A program made the translations under genes and the position numbers. From Cyclobacteriaceae bacterium (GTDB lineage: Bacteria > Bacteroidota > Bacteroidia > Cytophagales > Cyclobacteriaceae), in contig JANQKF010000023.1 in assembly GCA_028281285.1 (NCBI GenBank), positions 1-35,127 of the forward strand: a DNA stretch of 35,127 bases. Reading direction: 5' to 3'. Below the pieces are notes generated by a model. It was not told the DNA's origin and did not search any database. It saw only the letters and a list, made by a program, of their open reading frames with translations. Below are positions 540-30,326 of this stretch, piece by piece; the first letter of the stretch is position 1; each line of letters opens with the position of its first letter.

Positions 540-619
540 GATTATTTGCGACTAATCCCACCACAAATCCATAACTTTAAGCACGCTCCGATTGGTCGTT
601 GGAAAGTGAATTTTACATT

Positions 620-2056
620 ATGCGAGATCTGAGTTTTAAGCGCACAATCAGTTCTTGGCTGCTAATCATGGCCATTACTTTTCCGGGTTTTGCTCAGGAA
701 ATGGATGAGGAACGACTGCATAAAAAAGTCGATAAACTCTTCTCTGAATGGGACAATCCAAATACCCCCGGTGCAGCGATAGCCATAGTTAGAGATGGTC
801 ACATTATTTACAGAAAAGGATACGGAATGGCCAACCTGGAATACGCCATCCCAATTACTCCTTCCACCGTTTTTCATATTGCTTCCGTATCTAAACAGTT
901 TACGACCTTTTCTATTTTATTGCTCGCTAGAGACGGCCGTGTATCGCTTGATGACGATATCCGAAAGTATATCCCAGAAGTACCTGATTTTGGAAAGAAG
1001 ATTACCCTAAGGCATTTGGCGACTCATACCAGTGGGCTGAGAGACCAATGGAACCTGCTGGCACTGGCAGGATGGCGCCTTGATGACGTAATCACCAAGG
1101 ACCATGTAATGAAGTTGGTCAAAAACCAGAAAGAGCTCAATTTCGAACCTGGTGAGGAATATCTCTATTGCAACACGGGCTTTACTCTTATGGCAGAGGT
1201 AGTGGAAAGAGTGACCAGCAAAACGTTCGCGGAATTCACTCGGGAAAATATTTTCAAACCTCTCGGCATGACTCGTTCGCTTTTCTACGATGATCATGAA
1301 AAAATTGTAAAAAACAGGGCTTATTCTTATCACAAAGATGGTGATGGCTATAAGAAAAGTGTCCTGAGCTATGCTAATGTAGGAGCAACTAGCCTATTTA
1401 CCACCGTTGAGGATCTGAGCATTTGGGCCAGGAATTTCGAGAATCCTGTTGTGGGCAATTTGAGAATGATGAAGCAAATGAATGACAGGGGCGTATTAAA
1501 TAATGGGGACACCATTTCATACGCGCTTGGGCAAGCGGTGGGCCATTATAAAGGACTGAAACGCATCAGTCATGGTGGAGCTGATGCAGGTTATCGAACC
1601 TACCTTGCTAGATTTCCTGATCAGAATTTCTCAGTTATGGTATTCAGCAATCTGGCAGATTTTGATCCTGTCACAATTGGAATGAAAGTAGCCGATTTCT
1701 ATTTGAAAGAGGATTTTCCCGAAAAATTCAAAAACCACTCCACTTCTAATCGCGGCCCTAAAAAGAACAAATATCCCTCCAGGAAAAAGGATGTGACACT
1801 TGAGGACTATATCGGTGATTTCTATAGTGAAGAACTACACACTACCTATACATTCAAGATCAAAAGGGACATGCTAGTTGCGGAACATCCAAGGCATAAT
1901 GACATCAAATTAACCCACAGGAACCAGGATATATTTGGTAGCAAGACCTGGTTCTTTGGAGAAATTGAATTCACACGTGATACCAACAATCAAGTTAACG
2001 GTTGCAAAATCTCCAGCGGACGTGTGAGAAATCTCAGATTTACCAAAACCCACTAA
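620..2056 (+). CDS. Secreted penicillin-binding-type serine hydrolase (beta-lactamase family)
   Basis: A 478-residue protein of the class C beta-lactamase/D-alanyl-carboxypeptidase fold (PF00144 type). I chose ATG 620 over the in-frame TTG 599 because it gives a clean signal peptide: basic start, hydrophobic core at about residues 10-23, cleavage probably after GFA before QEMD. Catalytic motifs are visible in order: SVSK at 89-92 (nucleophile S89, general base K92), YCN at 182-184, and HGG at 317-319. HLATHTSGL near 131-139 is the usual conserved block after the first motif. After about residue 370 a basic linker leads to a small beta-rich C-terminal domain of the kind found in such hydrolases. 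Likely an exported peptidase or esterase acting in the periplasm; the substrate cannot be told. It ends 4 nt from the stop codon of the convergent cassette gene at 2061. Confidence 0.88.
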   Translation: MRDLSFKRTISSWLLIMAITFPGFAQEMDEERLHKKVDKLFSEWDNPNTPGAAIAIVRDGHIIYRKGYGMANLEYAIPITPSTVFHIASVSKQFTTFSILLLARDGRVSLDDDIRKYIPEVPDFGKKITLRHLATHTSGLRDQWNLLALAGWRLDDVITKDHVMKLVKNQKELNFEPGEEYLYCNTGFTLMAEVVERVTSKTFAEFTRENIFKPLGMTRSLFYDDHEKIVKNRAYSYHKDGDGYKKSVLSYANVGATSLFTTVEDLSIWARNFENPVVGNLRMMKQMNDRGVLNNGDTISYALGQAVGHYKGLKRISHGGADAGYRTYLARFPDQNFSVMVFSNLADFDPVTIGMKVADFYLKEDFPEKFKNHSTSNRGPKKNKYPSRKKDVTLEDYIGDFYSEELHTTYTFKIKRDMLVAEHPRHNDIKLTHRNQDIFGSKTWFFGEIEFTRDTNNQVNGCKISSGRVRNLRFTKTH

Positions 2057-2060
2057 TGCA

Positions 2061-3209
2061 CTACCCTGCGACCGAGGCCCAAGCCGCGAGTGCTCCGTTG
2101 AAGCTCGTGTACAGTCCATACTCACCATACACCAAACCTCCCCAATTTGCCTGTACCCCTTCATTGATTCCGGCATTCTGCACTGGGTCCGAAATATTCC
2201 GGCAAACACCCCAACTAACCTTATTTTCATTGGAAATCATGCCAATCACTGCATCGTCCATTTCCATAACGGCAAAGTAATCGTAGTTGCCACTCGTGTT
2301 TCCTACCACATAGCCATTCGTGGTTAACACAGGGACTCCGGGAAGGTGATTTATTTTTGGCGGCACCTGCCCTGGCGCTATCTCGGCATTAGCCAGTTCC
2401 TTCAGAGAATAAGCTTCTCCCGTATCCGGATTTTTCAACTCTTTGAGGTTATCAGATCTCAATTTTTCCAATTCACTTTCAGTCACCGGAGTTTCCATTA
2501 ACAAATCACTATTCCTGAGTTTATCCAGCAAGTCGCCTGTTGGTTCCCAATCATTCTCGAAAGTCTTGTGATTAAATGGATAGTGTTTTGGCTCAAATTC
2601 TCCGCTCAAGTCAAACCTGGCTGCATTTGTGATGTTCACCGTCCCAATACAATCGTGTACCCTGGAACCTCCGGAAGTACCAATAGTAAAGACAAATTTT
2701 GGCTTGAAGTCATCAATCAACTGCTGAACCATGTTTCTCAAAGGTAAGTCCGGACCATCTGTGCTTATATGCATATCCGATTTGAATAACAAAGCCTTCT
2801 TTCCATTGCTCGGAAACTCTACAATCCTGGCACTGCCCCAAGCCTTGTGTGTCTTTGAAGGTGACTTGCTGGTCAACTCTCCCTCTATTTTATCCCAGCC
2901 GTTATGATAATACTGCCAGCCATCATGCCAATACTCGTTTTCATAATAGGCATAAGGCATTTCCTGATCGCTATTGCAGAAAACATGATCAAATGCTGCC
3001 CATTCCGCTGAAGTCCATGTCATGATGACCATATCCACTTGAATAGTGTTGGTGTCTGGATTCCAATCGGTTCCGGTGACTAGTTTTGGTTTATTCGCAC
3101 CTATGCTCCCCCAATCAACCACTGGCAAAGGTGGCATGGTTGGTGATGTGGTACTTCGTTTGTATTCACCGTCTCCAAGGCGGTTTGGATACTTAGTCGT
3201 ATGTGTCAT
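2061..3209 (-). CDS. Nucleoside phosphorylase/nucleosidase-fold protein (PNP-like), second gene of cassette
   Basis: A 382-residue soluble protein without signal peptide. Motifs of the PNP/MTAN superfamily are visible: a strand and helix at 59-77 (DMVIMTWTSAEWAAFD), KSDMH at 143-147, the glycine-rich phosphate/ribose loop IGTSGG at 176-181 followed by IGTVNITNAARF, the ribose-contacting block VMEMDDA around 314-320 (classical members have MEMEA or DMEGA), and RNISD at 337-341 carrying the base-contacting aspartate D341. Known relatives cleave the N-glycosidic bond of nucleosides; several lineages act as effectors in bacterial conflict systems. The long region 200-300 between the phosphate loop and the EM motif is larger than in housekeeping MTAN. 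It follows the UDG-like gene by 20 nt in the same direction, so the pair is probably one transcript. The substrate is unknown; the family call is fairly sure, a defence role is inference. Confidence 0.75.
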   Translation of the reverse strand: MTHTTKYPNRLGDGEYKRSTTSPTMPPLPVVDWGSIGANKPKLVTGTDWNPDTNTIQVDMVIMTWTSAEWAAFDHVFCNSDQEMPYAYYENEYWHDGWQYYHNGWDKIEGELTSKSPSKTHKAWGSARIVEFPSNGKKALLFKSDMHISTDGPDLPLRNMVQQLIDDFKPKFVFTIGTSGGSRVHDCIGTVNITNAARFDLSGEFEPKHYPFNHKTFENDWEPTGDLLDKLRNSDLLMETPVTESELEKLRSDNLKELKNPDTGEAYSLKELANAEIAPGQVPPKINHLPGVPVLTTNGYVVGNTSGNYDYFAVMEMDDAVIGMISNENKVSWGVCRNISDPVQNAGINEGVQANWGGLVYGEYGLYTSFNGALAAWASVAG

Positions 3210-3229
3210 AATTCTATTTTATCAATCTT

Positions 3230-4906
3230 CTAGTTTTGAATTTTTCCTTGGTCAGCCAATGTTTGGGCAATTGCCTCAAGATAGGAAGCGTCTGGTGCGG
3301 GTTCGTCAGGTTTACCATAAGGACAACCAAGGGGGAATTGCCAATGATCATTCACACAGAAATTACAACCTCCAATACCACGAGTCAGATATCCTTTACC
3401 ATCAGCTCTATCTGTATAGGCCAACTTTCCTTCTGTATACTGATCTTCGAGGACGTTGCCCATAGCTGAATGAGCATCTACATACCCCTCCATAAGCACT
3501 TTGAACGCAGCCGGAAAGTCAGATTTAAGCTTTGCAAATACATGCTCTGCATCGCTATTAATTTGAATTGCAGCATACTCATAACTCTTCTCAGCAGCGA
3601 CAATTTTGACGTTTCTGTTTTCTTTGAGGTATTCATAACAGTCTGAATATTCCTGGGAAAATGACTCAAAATCACTCTCTGGCATCCTGAATTGAGGAAC
3701 AAAATTTGAATCATAAGAAAAGTGTGGTGAGACTACAAGTCGCGTTTTTATACTTGATTGTTTGCCCTGCACTTCACCCGCAAACTCAAAATAGCACTCA
3801 TTTTCAGTTGTATGTTTCAATAGAGTAAATGCATTATCCGGCAACTCCTTAGGAATAGGTGGATTGCATTGAATAAAGTTTCCGAAAGCATCATTGAACA
3901 TGTGGTAGGTAGACTCTCCTACCAAAAAGAGTACCGCTGGGTTGGTTTGAACAAATTGCTTGATGGCCCAAATATGATCACTGACACAATTGTTTATTAC
4001 GGAGTTTTCGCTCTCCTCTCCACCCATGAAATCCGGATTCCAATGAGGAGAAGCGCAGGCCACCATATCCAACTGACAAACATCTTCCCCAACTTTCAAA
4101 GAAGCATCCTTGTGCCCCTTTGAAGCCAGGAATTTATCAAACTTGGAAAGAACCGGCACGATTTGCTCATAGTAGCCTATTTGTTGCTCGTTAACCTGGA
4201 CAGGCAGACCTTCAGGCACGTCAAGTCGGCCTGCAATAACGTCCCCTTTCTTAAATGTGTTATTATGATCAAACGAATTAAAAAGCACCACATATCTGGG
4301 TGTACCTAGCGCTCTCTTAAGGTGAATAGTTGTTTCCTCCTGCTGTCCATCATACTGGATTACAAGGTCGTAGTCAGGTGAGTCAGTAGGCCTTTCGGTA
4401 GATATCACCTTACCGTCTGCCTCAGCAATGATCCTACCCTCCTTCATTATATATTTTTCAACAAAGTCGAGGTCGAAACACTCCTGGTAAACCGTTCTAT
4501 AGCGATAATAAAAAGCATATTTGGCCCATTCATCAGTGCCATTATCACTTGTAAATTCTGGATATGCCCAACTAGTCCCTTGCTGACCGGGAGCAAACGC
4601 AGTCAGGTTAGGGTTAATCCCAATGGTCATAATTGGGGCTTTCCGGCACCCATCCATGACCTCTGGTTTTGGAAAAGATTGTTGGCGCGTAGTCCCAATT
4701 ACCCAAGGCCATGGTTGAGGATATTTTTCTCCGGTTTGGTCAGGAGGTTCGTTTGTATCAGGATAGGTCTTATCAAAATCGAACGTTGGAAACGGACCAT
4801 AGGGCTGAGGGTTATTATCTGGCCAAAAGAACTTGCAGGTTCTGCAAGCCCTAACTTCGAAAACGAGCTTGACTTCGAGGGAATCCATTGAATTGGGATT
4901 TATCAT
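3230..4906 (-). CDS. Large cysteine-rich uracil-DNA-glycosylase-superfamily-like protein, first gene of cassette
   Basis: 558 residues, no signal peptide. I do not recognise an exact family, but the motif order fits the UDG superfamily. There is an N-terminal CRTC (C21, C24), then a hydrophobic strand into GINPN at 96-100, like the catalytic motif 1 of TDG/MUG-type enzymes (GINPG), followed by a GQQG...Y-P stretch. A ~175-residue insertion comes next, then DMVACASPHWNP (C284) and NNCVSDHI (C307) before a buried strand and glycine, AVLFLVG (324-330), and VVSPHFSY (391-398) in the place of the HPS-type motif 2. C21, C24, C284 and C307 match the order of the four [4Fe-4S] ligands of family 4 glycosylases. 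A second cluster, C514-x2-C517-x3-H521-x6-C528, near the C-terminus may bind another metal. ATG 4906 is used; ATG 4888 is an alternative. Function as a glycosylase is inference; it could be a catalytically altered sensor. Confidence 0.55.
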   Translation of the reverse strand: MINPNSMDSLEVKLVFEVRACRTCKFFWPDNNPQPYGPFPTFDFDKTYPDTNEPPDQTGEKYPQPWPWVIGTTRQQSFPKPEVMDGCRKAPIMTIGINPNLTAFAPGQQGTSWAYPEFTSDNGTDEWAKYAFYYRYRTVYQECFDLDFVEKYIMKEGRIIAEADGKVISTERPTDSPDYDLVIQYDGQQEETTIHLKRALGTPRYVVLFNSFDHNNTFKKGDVIAGRLDVPEGLPVQVNEQQIGYYEQIVPVLSKFDKFLASKGHKDASLKVGEDVCQLDMVACASPHWNPDFMGGEESENSVINNCVSDHIWAIKQFVQTNPAVLFLVGESTYHMFNDAFGNFIQCNPPIPKELPDNAFTLLKHTTENECYFEFAGEVQGKQSSIKTRLVVSPHFSYDSNFVPQFRMPESDFESFSQEYSDCYEYLKENRNVKIVAAEKSYEYAAIQINSDAEHVFAKLKSDFPAAFKVLMEGYVDAHSAMGNVLEDQYTEGKLAYTDRADGKGYLTRGIGGCNFCVNDHWQFPLGCPYGKPDEPAPDASYLEAIAQTLADQGKIQN

Positions 4907-5077: not shown

Positions 5078-6433
5078 ATGCAAGAAGATAGTCTCTATTT
5101 GAAGTTCATTAGGAATGCCCTACCCTCTCCCTTCTCCATAGCGATAATATTGACGTTGATCACTTATATTCTTGCTTTGGTCTTCACCAATCGTCCTGAA
5201 AATGCAGTATCAGCCTACCCCATAAGAATTCTTGAATATTGGGAAACAGGGTTTTGGGAGCTACTCGAATTTACCATGCAGATGGCCTTAATTCTCATTT
5301 TGGGTCATGCATTGGCGCTTACTCCATTTTTCAATCGAATAATTATAAGGTTCACCAAATATTGCACGAATACAGCAAGTGCTGCCATGTGGATTAGCCT
5401 ATTGACCATTGCCGTTAGTTTTATCAATTGGGGGTTATGTCTGATTTTCGGGGCCATTTTTGCCAGAAAGGTAGCCGAGCAAGCCAAAATGAAAGGCTTG
5501 AAGTTAAACTACCCTCTTATTGGAGCTGCCGGGTACAGTGGGATGATGTGTTGGCATGGAGGGTTCTCAGGATCTGCCCCACTCACCGTAGCCACTAAAG
5601 ATCACTTTCTCACAGATCAAATCGGGCAAGTTGGGATTCAAGAAACACTTTTTTCCACTATGAACATTAGCACATCAGTGCTGTTGCTCATTGTCATCCC
5701 TACTGTATTCTACTTGCTGGGAAAAGGATCTAAAGGCAAGGAAATCAATCTCATGATTGACACAGATAAAACACATACAGCCAGCACCTTTGCTCCGAAA
5801 GGAGCCGAGAAGATTGACCATTCCCGAACTGCAGCTAGCATTCTGGGGATTATTATCTGTTTTATTGCACTACGGAAAATCTGGATTTCGCCTCAGGGAA
5901 CAGGCCTTAGTTTTATCAACCTCAACTATATCAACTTTCTATTATTTGGACTTGGAGTAGTGATGCACGGATCATTTGCCAGTTTTCTGGACGCCCTTCA
6001 CAGAGCTGTTGGAGGATCTGTCGGCATAATTATCCAATTCCCATTATATGCAGGCATTATGGGGATAATGAAGTACTCCGGATTAGCAGCAGAAGTATCT
6101 CAAGGATTTGTAGCTATATCAAATGCTACCACACTACCAATATTCACCTTTTTCAGTGCCGGTCTTGTAAATATTTTCGTTCCCAGTGGTGGAGGTCAGT
6201 GGGCTGTTCAAGGGCCAATTATAACAGAAGCCGCACAGACTCTAGGTGTATCAATTCCAAAAACCGTGATGGCCTTATCTTACGGAGACCAGCTGACCAA
6301 CATGCTACAACCCTTCTGGGCACTTCCGTTACTCGGAATCACACGATTGAAGGCAAAAGACATACTTCCGTTTTCTACAATTATCATGCTTGTCGGAATG
6401 GTTATATTTATCCTTGCATTGTTGATTTTTTAG
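5078..6433 (+). CDS. atoE: AtoE-family short-chain fatty acid transporter
   Basis: A 451-residue polytopic inner membrane protein with about a dozen hydrophobic segments, matching the length of AtoE/TIGR00366 transporters (PF02667). Highly characteristic blocks are present: INWGLCLIFGAIFAR at about 115-129, GAAGYSGMMCWHGGFSGSAPL at about 148-168, VPSGGGQWAVQGP at about 368-380, and YGDQLTNMLQPFWALPLLGIT near 405-425. Known members import short-chain fatty acids such as acetoacetate or butyrate for catabolism. No ato-type CoA transferase or thiolase lies nearby, so the exact substrate is open. A small membrane protein gene starts 4 nt after its stop and is probably co-transcribed. An inverted repeat at 5028-5047 may control it. 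Confidence 0.92.
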   Translation: MQEDSLYLKFIRNALPSPFSIAIILTLITYILALVFTNRPENAVSAYPIRILEYWETGFWELLEFTMQMALILILGHALALTPFFNRIIIRFTKYCTNTASAAMWISLLTIAVSFINWGLCLIFGAIFARKVAEQAKMKGLKLNYPLIGAAGYSGMMCWHGGFSGSAPLTVATKDHFLTDQIGQVGIQETLFSTMNISTSVLLLIVIPTVFYLLGKGSKGKEINLMIDTDKTHTASTFAPKGAEKIDHSRTAASILGIIICFIALRKIWISPQGTGLSFINLNYINFLLFGLGVVMHGSFASFLDALHRAVGGSVGIIIQFPLYAGIMGIMKYSGLAAEVSQGFVAISNATTLPIFTFFSAGLVNIFVPSGGGQWAVQGPIITEAAQTLGVSIPKTVMALSYGDQLTNMLQPFWALPLLGITRLKAKDILPFSTIIMLVGMVIFILALLIF

Positions 6434-28832: not shown

Positions 28833-30326
28833 CTATTTGATTTTCGACTTTATTCGTTCAATTGATTTCGAATACCATTCCAGGTCTTGTTTGGCAGCTT
28901 TAGAGAAACCCGATTCGATTCCTGTTACCATTCCATATGCCATACTGAAGTAAGTCAGCGCATCTTCTAATTGATTAGCCCTTCTCAGGATATTACCTAA
29001 ATGACCATAAGTTTTATAATAACCCGGATACAATTTAAGGCTCATTTTTAAGAGTTCTACGGCTTTTTCATTCTGGCTTAAATCACTATGTAAGGTATAG
29101 GCTAACTCTATGGCTTCGTCAGGCATGAAGAGAAGAAATGTCGAGTCATTACTATATACGCGATCAAAGACCTCCTTAGACTTTTCTAAACCCTGATTTT
29201 TAAAGATCTCAAAAAACTCTTCCGTTTTTGGAGGACGTGGAAGTGGCTCCAGCCTGCGATACACAACCAAATTACTATCAATTTCTCGGTCTAATATACC
29301 CTCAACACTATCTTTCAACGCCCTATCAAAAAATCGAATTGTAGTCGTGATTAGTTTTTCATAGCTCCTTCTCTTTTTTTCGTCTTCAGGACCAATATTA
29401 TTCCCACTATACAACCTGCCCAGGTAGTCAAGAGAGCTAAATTCGTGATGCTGAAGATACTTGTATTGCAGGTAGTAGCCGTCAGAATATTTGATTTTCG
29501 ACAAAAACGATGTAAGCTCATCATGTGTCCGATTCACTCCGACAAAAAGATATGGAACAGTGACATTTTGGGGGTTGAAAAATGCTGTAGTGCTGGCTTT
29601 GTCAGAGTGAAGTGCCATTGACCCATCCAGGCTGACTACTCCATCGACATTCTGATTTCTCATCTGGACCAGCATACTTGCCAACCCTCCCCAACTCCAA
29701 CCTATCAAACCCAAATTAGCAATATCAGCAGTCACAATCGATTCCTGGACTACGTTGATCGTAAATTCAATATCCCTTGCCTGGGACTCGAGCCCCTGTG
29801 CACTGATTTTGGTCCACTCCGAATCAGGGCCTAGTGAATAATGTGCAGCTACTACATAACCGTGACTGGCCAGATATTCGCAAAGCAAAAGGTTCTCGAA
29901 TTCGTCTCCATAAGCTCCGGGAGAATATACTGCTAAAGGAAATTTTCGCTCTAGTCTTGGCCGACTCTCTCGGTAACTCAAGGATTCCCAATCTAAAATT
30001 CGTGTAGTATCTACATCAGCCCCCAAGTCATTAAAAAGGTTTTTCCAGGTGGACATATCTGTTCTGCTCCGAGACAAATAATCAGACAGTGTTATTCTTT
30101 CTATACCAACTTCAGATGGATACCAAATTAAAATTCTCATTGGGCGCCCTTGGTTTTTACCAAAGCTCCTGGAGAAATCCGTTTTCTCGACCATTCTCAC
30201 ACCTACCTCATAAGGTCCTCGGTCTAAGTTTACTTCTGATTCTTGTGAGATCAACTGCGAATAGTTCCAGGCAATCAAGACCACCAAACCAACCATGATC
30301 CGCACTATTTTTATTAATGACTTCAT
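28833..30326 (-). CDS. Secreted alpha/beta hydrolase with C-terminal TPRs
   Basis: 497 residues. A hydrophobic N-terminal segment (~9-26) acts as a signal or anchor. The alpha/beta-hydrolase fold resembles the dienelactone hydrolase/PAF-acetylhydrolase-like group: IWYPSE at about 67-72, FPLAVYSPGAYG (~129-140), the nucleophile elbow GWSWGG with S211, the likely acid D234 in VSLDGSMA, and H294 in HHEFSSLD, which completes the triad. Residues ~395-490 are TPR-like (AVELLKMSLKLYPGYYKTYGHLGNILRRANQLEDALTYF). Substrate unknown; an ester, lipid or peptide are all possible. The start codon overlaps the stop of the Lrp/AsnC gene in an ATGA, so both are translated from one mRNA. Confidence 0.85.
   Translation of the reverse strand: MKSLIKIVRIMVGLVVLIAWNYSQLISQESEVNLDRGPYEVGVRMVEKTDFSRSFGKNQGRPMRILIWYPSEVGIERITLSDYLSRSRTDMSTWKNLFNDLGADVDTTRILDWESLSYRESRPRLERKFPLAVYSPGAYGDEFENLLLCEYLASHGYVVAAHYSLGPDSEWTKISAQGLESQARDIEFTINVVQESIVTADIANLGLIGWSWGGLASMLVQMRNQNVDGVVSLDGSMALHSDKASTTAFFNPQNVTVPYLFVGVNRTHDELTSFLSKIKYSDGYYLQYKYLQHHEFSSLDYLGRLYSGNNIGPEDEKKRRSYEKLITTTIRFFDRALKDSVEGILDREIDSNLVVYRRLEPLPRPPKTEEFFEIFKNQGLEKSKEVFDRVYSNDSTFLLFMPDEAIELAYTLHSDLSQNEKAVELLKMSLKLYPGYYKTYGHLGNILRRANQLEDALTYFSMAYGMVTGIESGFSKAAKQDLEWYSKSIERIKSKIK

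Follow-up and report, generated by a model that had tools for sequence, protein, structure and literature searches.

Among described systems, the closest to the locus reported here are two glycosylase systems, the nucleoside-phosphorylase conflict systems and, as single enzymes, the family 4 UDGs, the TDG/SMUG1 class of UDGs and the MTA/SAH nucleosidases (MTAN). Brig1 has a UDG-related fold and carries an acidic residue where most of its relatives have the Asn that reads the base; its likeness to our protein is drawn from that description, and the accessible text describes no PNP-fold partner (PMC11078745). N82 of the Sulfolobus tokodaii enzyme (St UDG) corresponds to the Watson-Crick-face residue of Brig1, Glu147, whose changes to Ala (E147A) and Gln (E147Q) impair immunity, whereas N145A does not (PMC11078745). 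In Brig3-BapA, a DNA glycosylase is likewise encoded in an operon with a second hydrolase and its active site needs an Asp and an Asn (D127 and N50, for the excision of 5hmC); however, in the accessible text the Brig3 fold is likened to AAG and other glycosylases, and the BapA partner is a glucosyl hydrolase (PMC13160076). The nucleoside-phosphorylase conflict systems have a PNP-superfamily domain and, rarely, DNA-glycosylase effectors; the partners of our pair (the families C1 to C4 and a DNase II-like family, see below) include no regulator recognised from those systems as the accessible text presents them (PMC7159879).

The DNA analysed here is a 35,127-nt stretch of a Cyclobacteriaceae genome (the window). 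Two ORFs, gene2 (2061..3209, minus strand, 382 aa) and gene1 (3230..4906, minus strand, 558 aa), run in the same direction separated by 20 nt (3210-3229), as the first-pass annotation had described them; since both lie on the minus strand, which the annotation did not state, gene1 is upstream of gene2. The motifs listed in that annotation (CxxC, GINPN, C284, C307 and SPHFS in gene1; IGTSGG, EMDD and RNISD in gene2) were all found, and the conservation of GINP, H395 and eight Cys residues of gene1 exceeds chance. Its description of an isolated cassette holds for the window, where the pair is flanked by unrelated genes for a beta-lactamase-family protein (599-2056, plus strand) and a short-chain fatty acid transporter (5078-6433, plus strand), the latter followed by a 249-aa protein and aconitase, but it fails in many other genomes, where the pair sits within a larger set of genes. 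Elsewhere in the window, positions 1-99 have a 100% identical copy on another contig of the genome (C3:180917-181015), so the repeat may break the assembly there, and a 497-aa frame at 28833-30326 (minus strand) had no Pfam match at E<=1e-5.

The predicted structure of the gene1 protein adopts the UDG alpha/beta fold, which upholds the earlier proposal of a UDG, and its top fold matches are family 4 UDGs (Sulfolobus tokodaii 4zbx/4zby, Thermus 1ui0/1ui1 and Thermotoga 1vk2/1l9g); the TDG/SMUG1 class gave lower Z. Profile comparison of 3230-4906 with UDG families, the check recommended at that time, was weak, with at most 52 columns aligned and a probability of at most 5.2%. For this comparison, hhalign was given 30 Fe-S UDGs and the two UDGs that the window genome itself encodes; the best score of the trimmed gene1 profile was 25.1, and the maximum of 100 column shuffles was 23.0. 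One control pair (udg4-u66) scored 95%, and another, the true UDG pair udg4-u67, failed at 0.1%; therefore hhalign misses distant UDGs. A PF03167 match was present in 57 of the 90 members of alignment A11 at E<=0.1, the next Pfam family being found in 2, and the relative P0282 scored 27.0 bits for a curated cut-off of 24.3, while the window protein itself had no PF03167 match above the curated cut-off. Searching by sequence and by profile for solved structures related to gene1 yielded nothing but chance-level matches. Gene1 best fits the description of a new family in the UDG superfamily. As in family 4, Cys residues appear to occupy the four Fe-S ligand positions, which sets gene1 apart from the TDG/SMUG1 class. 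Family 4 differs in its size (about 190-220 aa), in its motif A, which is GE(A/G)PG there and GINPN in gene1, and in the base-reading Asn, which is Asp in gene1; in gene1, moreover, the stretch from motif A to the third Cys is longer by about 140 residues, and there are four additional invariant Cys. TDG and SMUG1 have Asn at the third place of motif A, as in GINPN.

Conservation was checked in 119 near relatives (the best listed of 656) and 119 distant ones (the best listed of 545). GINP, D280, H395 and the eight Cys were invariant in these 238 sequences, with the exception of one C284T. Motif A (residues 96-100; 4607..4621, minus strand) has its GINP, including N98, in 238/238 and N100 in 237/238, the whole GINPN being kept in 118/119 of one set and 119/119 of the other; H395 lies in motif B (PHFSY), the SPHFS stretch spanning residues 393-397. 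By hhalign, with the numbering counted, C21, C24, C284 and C307 stand in register with C14, C17, C86 and C102 of St UDG; the C21-x2-C24 pair (4835..4846, minus strand; 238/238) is aligned with the Fe-S-position Cys 14/17, and C284 is at the third Fe-S position. Motif A and the third Cys are 184 residues apart in gene1 (N100-C284) versus 41 in St UDG (G45-C86). Most of the extra sequence lies at about residues 141-240 (approximately 4187..4486, minus strand); it is beta-rich in the predicted structure and partly absent in an Azospirillum relative, and its 'KGDVIAGRLDVP' may resemble lipoyl-like barrel domains. Four further Cys that the first-pass annotation did not list, C87 together with C514, C517 and C528 (the latter three at 3323..3367, minus strand), are as conserved as those at the Fe-S positions (238/238), and by reading of the alignment they are also present in the Azospirillum outlier. 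The fold comparison hardly covered residues after 494; from their conservation, C87, C514, C517 and C528 may form a second metal site. In a Chitinophagales MAG, gene1 is split into two overlapping frames (L021:2409-4072), presumably by a frameshift or an assembly error.

The residue at the base-reading position is D280 (D280-C284: 4055..4069, minus strand), Asp in 238/238 relatives. It stands four residues ahead of C284, and N82 of St UDG is likewise ahead of C86, in the hhalign register. UNG of E. coli with the substitution N123D excises cytosine and is toxic to the cell, but the double mutant N123D:L191A leaves C opposite G uncut and keeps weak uracil activity (PMC3989344, accessible text), so that the Asp alone does not settle the substrate. 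In an Azospirillum protein (L070:15047-17863), a gene1-like domain with a much shorter insert is fused to an amidohydrolase and has Asn at this position; therefore specificity may vary within the family. With its Asp, gene1 most likely recognises cytosine or a modified cytosine, and not uracil, by the Watson-Crick face. To our knowledge, Brig1 and the engineered UNG mutants are the only UDG-fold enzymes in which the residue that reads the base is acidic.

For gene2, a profile of 40 sequences (A2) matched the MTA/SAH nucleosidase 4qez best (E 4.5e-8), and its matches at E<=1 comprised 32 distinct sequences named MTA/SAH, adenosylhomocysteine or aminodeoxyfutalosine nucleosidases. The window protein itself reached E 0.0062 and 16.4 bits with PF01048, under the curated 25.1, and PF01048 is precomputed for many of the gene2 relatives listed. 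The profile match supports a place in the PNP/UDP-phosphorylase superfamily, in agreement with the PNP fold first proposed for it. MTANs use a catalytic Asp and a water-activating Glu. In the profile alignment, EMDDA of gene2 faces EMEA, and RNISD faces RALSD or RAISD, of MTA/SAH nucleosidases; we take D341 in RNISD to be the catalytic Asp from this alignment, and E69 in TWTSAEW to be the water-activating Glu from its position after the first strand. Among 119 relatives checked (the best listed of 445), 117 keep D341, and 117 keep E69, the other 2 having a gap there. Gene2 thus has the PNP-fold signature and the EM(E/D) and R-x-x-S-D motifs of MTAN, but at 382 aa it has extra sequence and it scored 13-14 bits with the curated NCBIfam MTAN models, far under their cut-offs of 161-260. 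By hhalign, gene2 aligned weakly with the three PF01048 proteins of the window genome, reaching 16% at best.

The pairing of the two genes is real and conserved. In 84,980 species genomes we obtained 30 gene1 loci, namely one fragment (L031), 23 of a close subfamily (L002-L023 and L025) and 6 of a distant one (L024 and L026-L030). Of the 23 close loci, 20 hold gene2 as well: fused in 7 (L008, L009, L012, L014 in part, L015, L018 and L025), adjacent in 11 and further apart in 2 (L005 and L007, separated by one gene or by about 4.4 kb). The remaining loci, L002, L006 and L020, end at contig edges, and each of the three genomes has gene2; in L002 (Roseivirga sp.), gene1 ends at base 498 of contig C96 and a gene2 frame starts at 502. 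In the distant subfamily, gene2 was found in 0/6 genomes searched (five loci and G169), nor was it in locus L027, which counts against a two-enzyme module. Fusions occur in the order gene1-gene2 (P0006 and P0010) and in the order gene2-gene1 (P0106 and the seven fused loci), which makes two or more fusion events likely and, because the fusions exist in both orders, gene1 and gene2 would act in one pathway. The annotation would have been refuted had homologues of the two genes not been neighbours in other genomes; in distant genomes they are adjacent or fused. A common uracil repair enzyme that has gene2 beside it by chance would account for the UDG fold of gene1; however, the linkage, D280 and the two PF03167 proteins already present in the window genome speak against it, and since gene1/gene2 fusions exist, in both orders, we consider this reading very improbable.

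In the fuller loci, the pair is accompanied by four recurrent families. C1 (about 250 aa, no function assigned) is present in 17/23 close loci, C2 (about 308 aa, no function assigned) in 15/23, and C3 (about 530 aa) and C4 (about 380 aa) in 12/23 each; C3 has a Metallophos match (PF00149) in L018 and a profile near purple acid phosphatase (E 2e-4), and C4 is ferritin-like (PF12902) in L018 and L017. A DNase II-like family occurs in 7/30 loci including L027, Pfam having been tested in L018 alone. C1 was also found in 4 of the 6 distant loci; in L024 it shares a protein with an amidohydrolase, and in L030 with a GDPD domain. Searches of the window genome gave no match to C1 or to DNase II, both without a positive control, nor to PF12902, for which one control genome was positive; with no C1 or PF12902 match, the fuller pathway is unseen there.

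These partners bear on two readings of the purpose of the locus. The first is catabolism or salvage of nucleic acids and nucleosides, in which the DNase II-like protein, phosphatase, nucleosidase and glycosylase would feed bases into metabolism. It is favoured by the activities predicted for the fuller operons, by the fusion of the Azospirillum gene1 to an amidohydrolase, and by a gene2 relative without gene1 that lies, by eye, on the same strand beside a 1538-aa xanthine dehydrogenase-like protein in the genome of L002 (L101:4463-10195). Such a pathway would have no need of a DNA glycosylase, the locus is patchy for housekeeping, and the DNase II-like sequences that were read have, by eye, no obvious signal peptide; we regard salvage as possible, and tentatively so. 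The second reading, in which gene1 would have been recruited to a small molecule and not to DNA for the biosynthesis or tailoring of a nucleobase-containing metabolite, would suit the PF12902 protein, the tyrosinase-family and GMC oxidoreductase genes near the pair in plasmid loci, an aldehyde ferredoxin oxidoreductase adjoining the archaeal locus and, by eye, a DyP-like protein, but no scaffold-forming enzyme was recognised in the loci, the partners differ from locus to locus and the pair alone was seen in the window genome. We find it doubtful. The DyP-peroxidase-like protein lies within the cluster of L007 (7430-8824).

Gene1 was found in 2 of 72,556 plasmid records, and gene2 in the same 2. 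On the Burkholderia plasmid the set is complete, preceded by a tyrosinase-family gene and followed by RebB genes; the Azospirillum plasmid, typed as conjugative, carries GDPD, gene2, gene1-amidohydrolase and S8 peptidase genes. Shortly past the operon of the Burkholderia plasmid (L069:22712-26247) are RebB R-body genes, a sigma-70 factor and a Crp/Fnr regulator; a general link to R-bodies was rejected, as a RebB match was present in just 4/18 genomes or records.

The distribution of gene1 is patchy. It occurs in 3 of 395 genomes drawn from the phylum, which are the window's own, that of a distant relative (G169) and one with a fragment (G307). The Roseivirga genome of L002 retains the window's transporter, 249-aa protein and aconitase block beside gene1, and G320, a genome of the same genus, also has this block (L083) but with neither gene1 nor gene2 there and no gene1 in the genome search. 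In a tree of 30 gene1 rows, one of them archaeal (L005), there were 11 phylum changes versus a minimum of 6 and a shuffled mean of 16.7, and more than one change does not by itself prove transfer; the starred branches demand 3 changes each in Bacteroidota and Acidobacteriota and 4 in Pseudomonadota. Taking together the interleaved phyla and the patchy presence, transfer of gene1 is likely.

These features also count in favour of anti-phage defence, in which gene1 would remove modified cytosines from incoming DNA in the manner of the Brig enzymes and gene2 would destroy nucleotides or make a signal. Besides the interleaved phyla, the patchiness and the plasmids, the acidic base-reading residue is held in common with Brig1, and the Brig3 pocket also needs an Asp (D127), a likeness of residue type and not of aligned position. 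A caspase-domain gene adjoins gene1 in L030 and an AbiEi-like gene lies ahead of it in L028, both distant relatives. Among 135 neighbours (drawn from 155 listed, the 20 omitted including the longest and near-duplicates), PADLOC matches were to LmuA (4), mad3 (4), methyltransferases (2), GajB (1) and Avs1a (1), but this tally has no background control and counts broad ATPase, MBL and methylase models. Neither protein of the pair matches PADLOC 2.0 (0 families at E<=10), gene1 is unmatched in 50,697 phage records, and phosphatase-like and ferritin-like partners are atypical of defence. The defence role that the first-pass annotation held plausible stays a conjecture, somewhat doubtful: the window flanks are ordinary metabolic and transport genes, and the wider operon fits nucleic-acid or nucleoside chemistry equally.

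The best explanation overall, to which we give a probability of about 0.5, is a two-enzyme module cleaving N-glycosidic bonds. Gene1 would be a catalytically intact Fe-S-type glycosylase of the UDG superfamily, with N98 positioning the water and H395 in motif B, and, having Asp280 where Asn is usual, it would read cytosine or a modified cytosine, in DNA or in a nucleotide; gene2 would be an MTAN-like enzyme cutting nucleosides or nucleotides in the same pathway. The DNase II-like and phosphatase-like proteins of the fuller loci would supply DNA fragments and nucleosides, and the module would strip bases off DNA and its breakdown products. The fold of gene1, the superfamily of gene2, the conservation, the linkage, the fusions and the patchy, phylum-interleaved distribution are supported directly. 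We infer the activity, the base specificity, the metal sites and the order of the pathway. Between defence or competition on one side and catabolism or biosynthesis on the other, we lean slightly to a role in conflict. A bolder version, which we think unlikely, is that of an undescribed UDG-fold family with two metal sites that naturally reads cytosine or modified cytosine and is tied to a nucleosidase, the whole acting as a mobile module for immunity or competition by which one class of base is removed both from DNA and from the nucleotide pool. A limited literature search found no paper on the gene1-gene2 pair, which does not prove its absence from print. An Asp fixed in every near and distant relative checked of a widespread family, together with a second set of Cys and a fused nucleosidase, means that gene1 and gene2 lend themselves to testing directly which base is read in nature and how a new pair of enzymes works.

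A phage origin was considered and rejected, as gene1 matched 0/50,697 phage records and had no confirmed relatives among viral contigs. Gene2 has one relative among viral contigs; at L068:9884-11179, on a contig of a viral collection, a gene2 relative of 33% identity lies in a stretch from which gene1 is absent and has, by eye, tail-like and transposase-like frames near it. In the databases, most named rows of the gene1 family read 'hypothetical protein', and some members (P0047; L069:12795-15737) are named GTPase, a name that fits neither of the folds found here.
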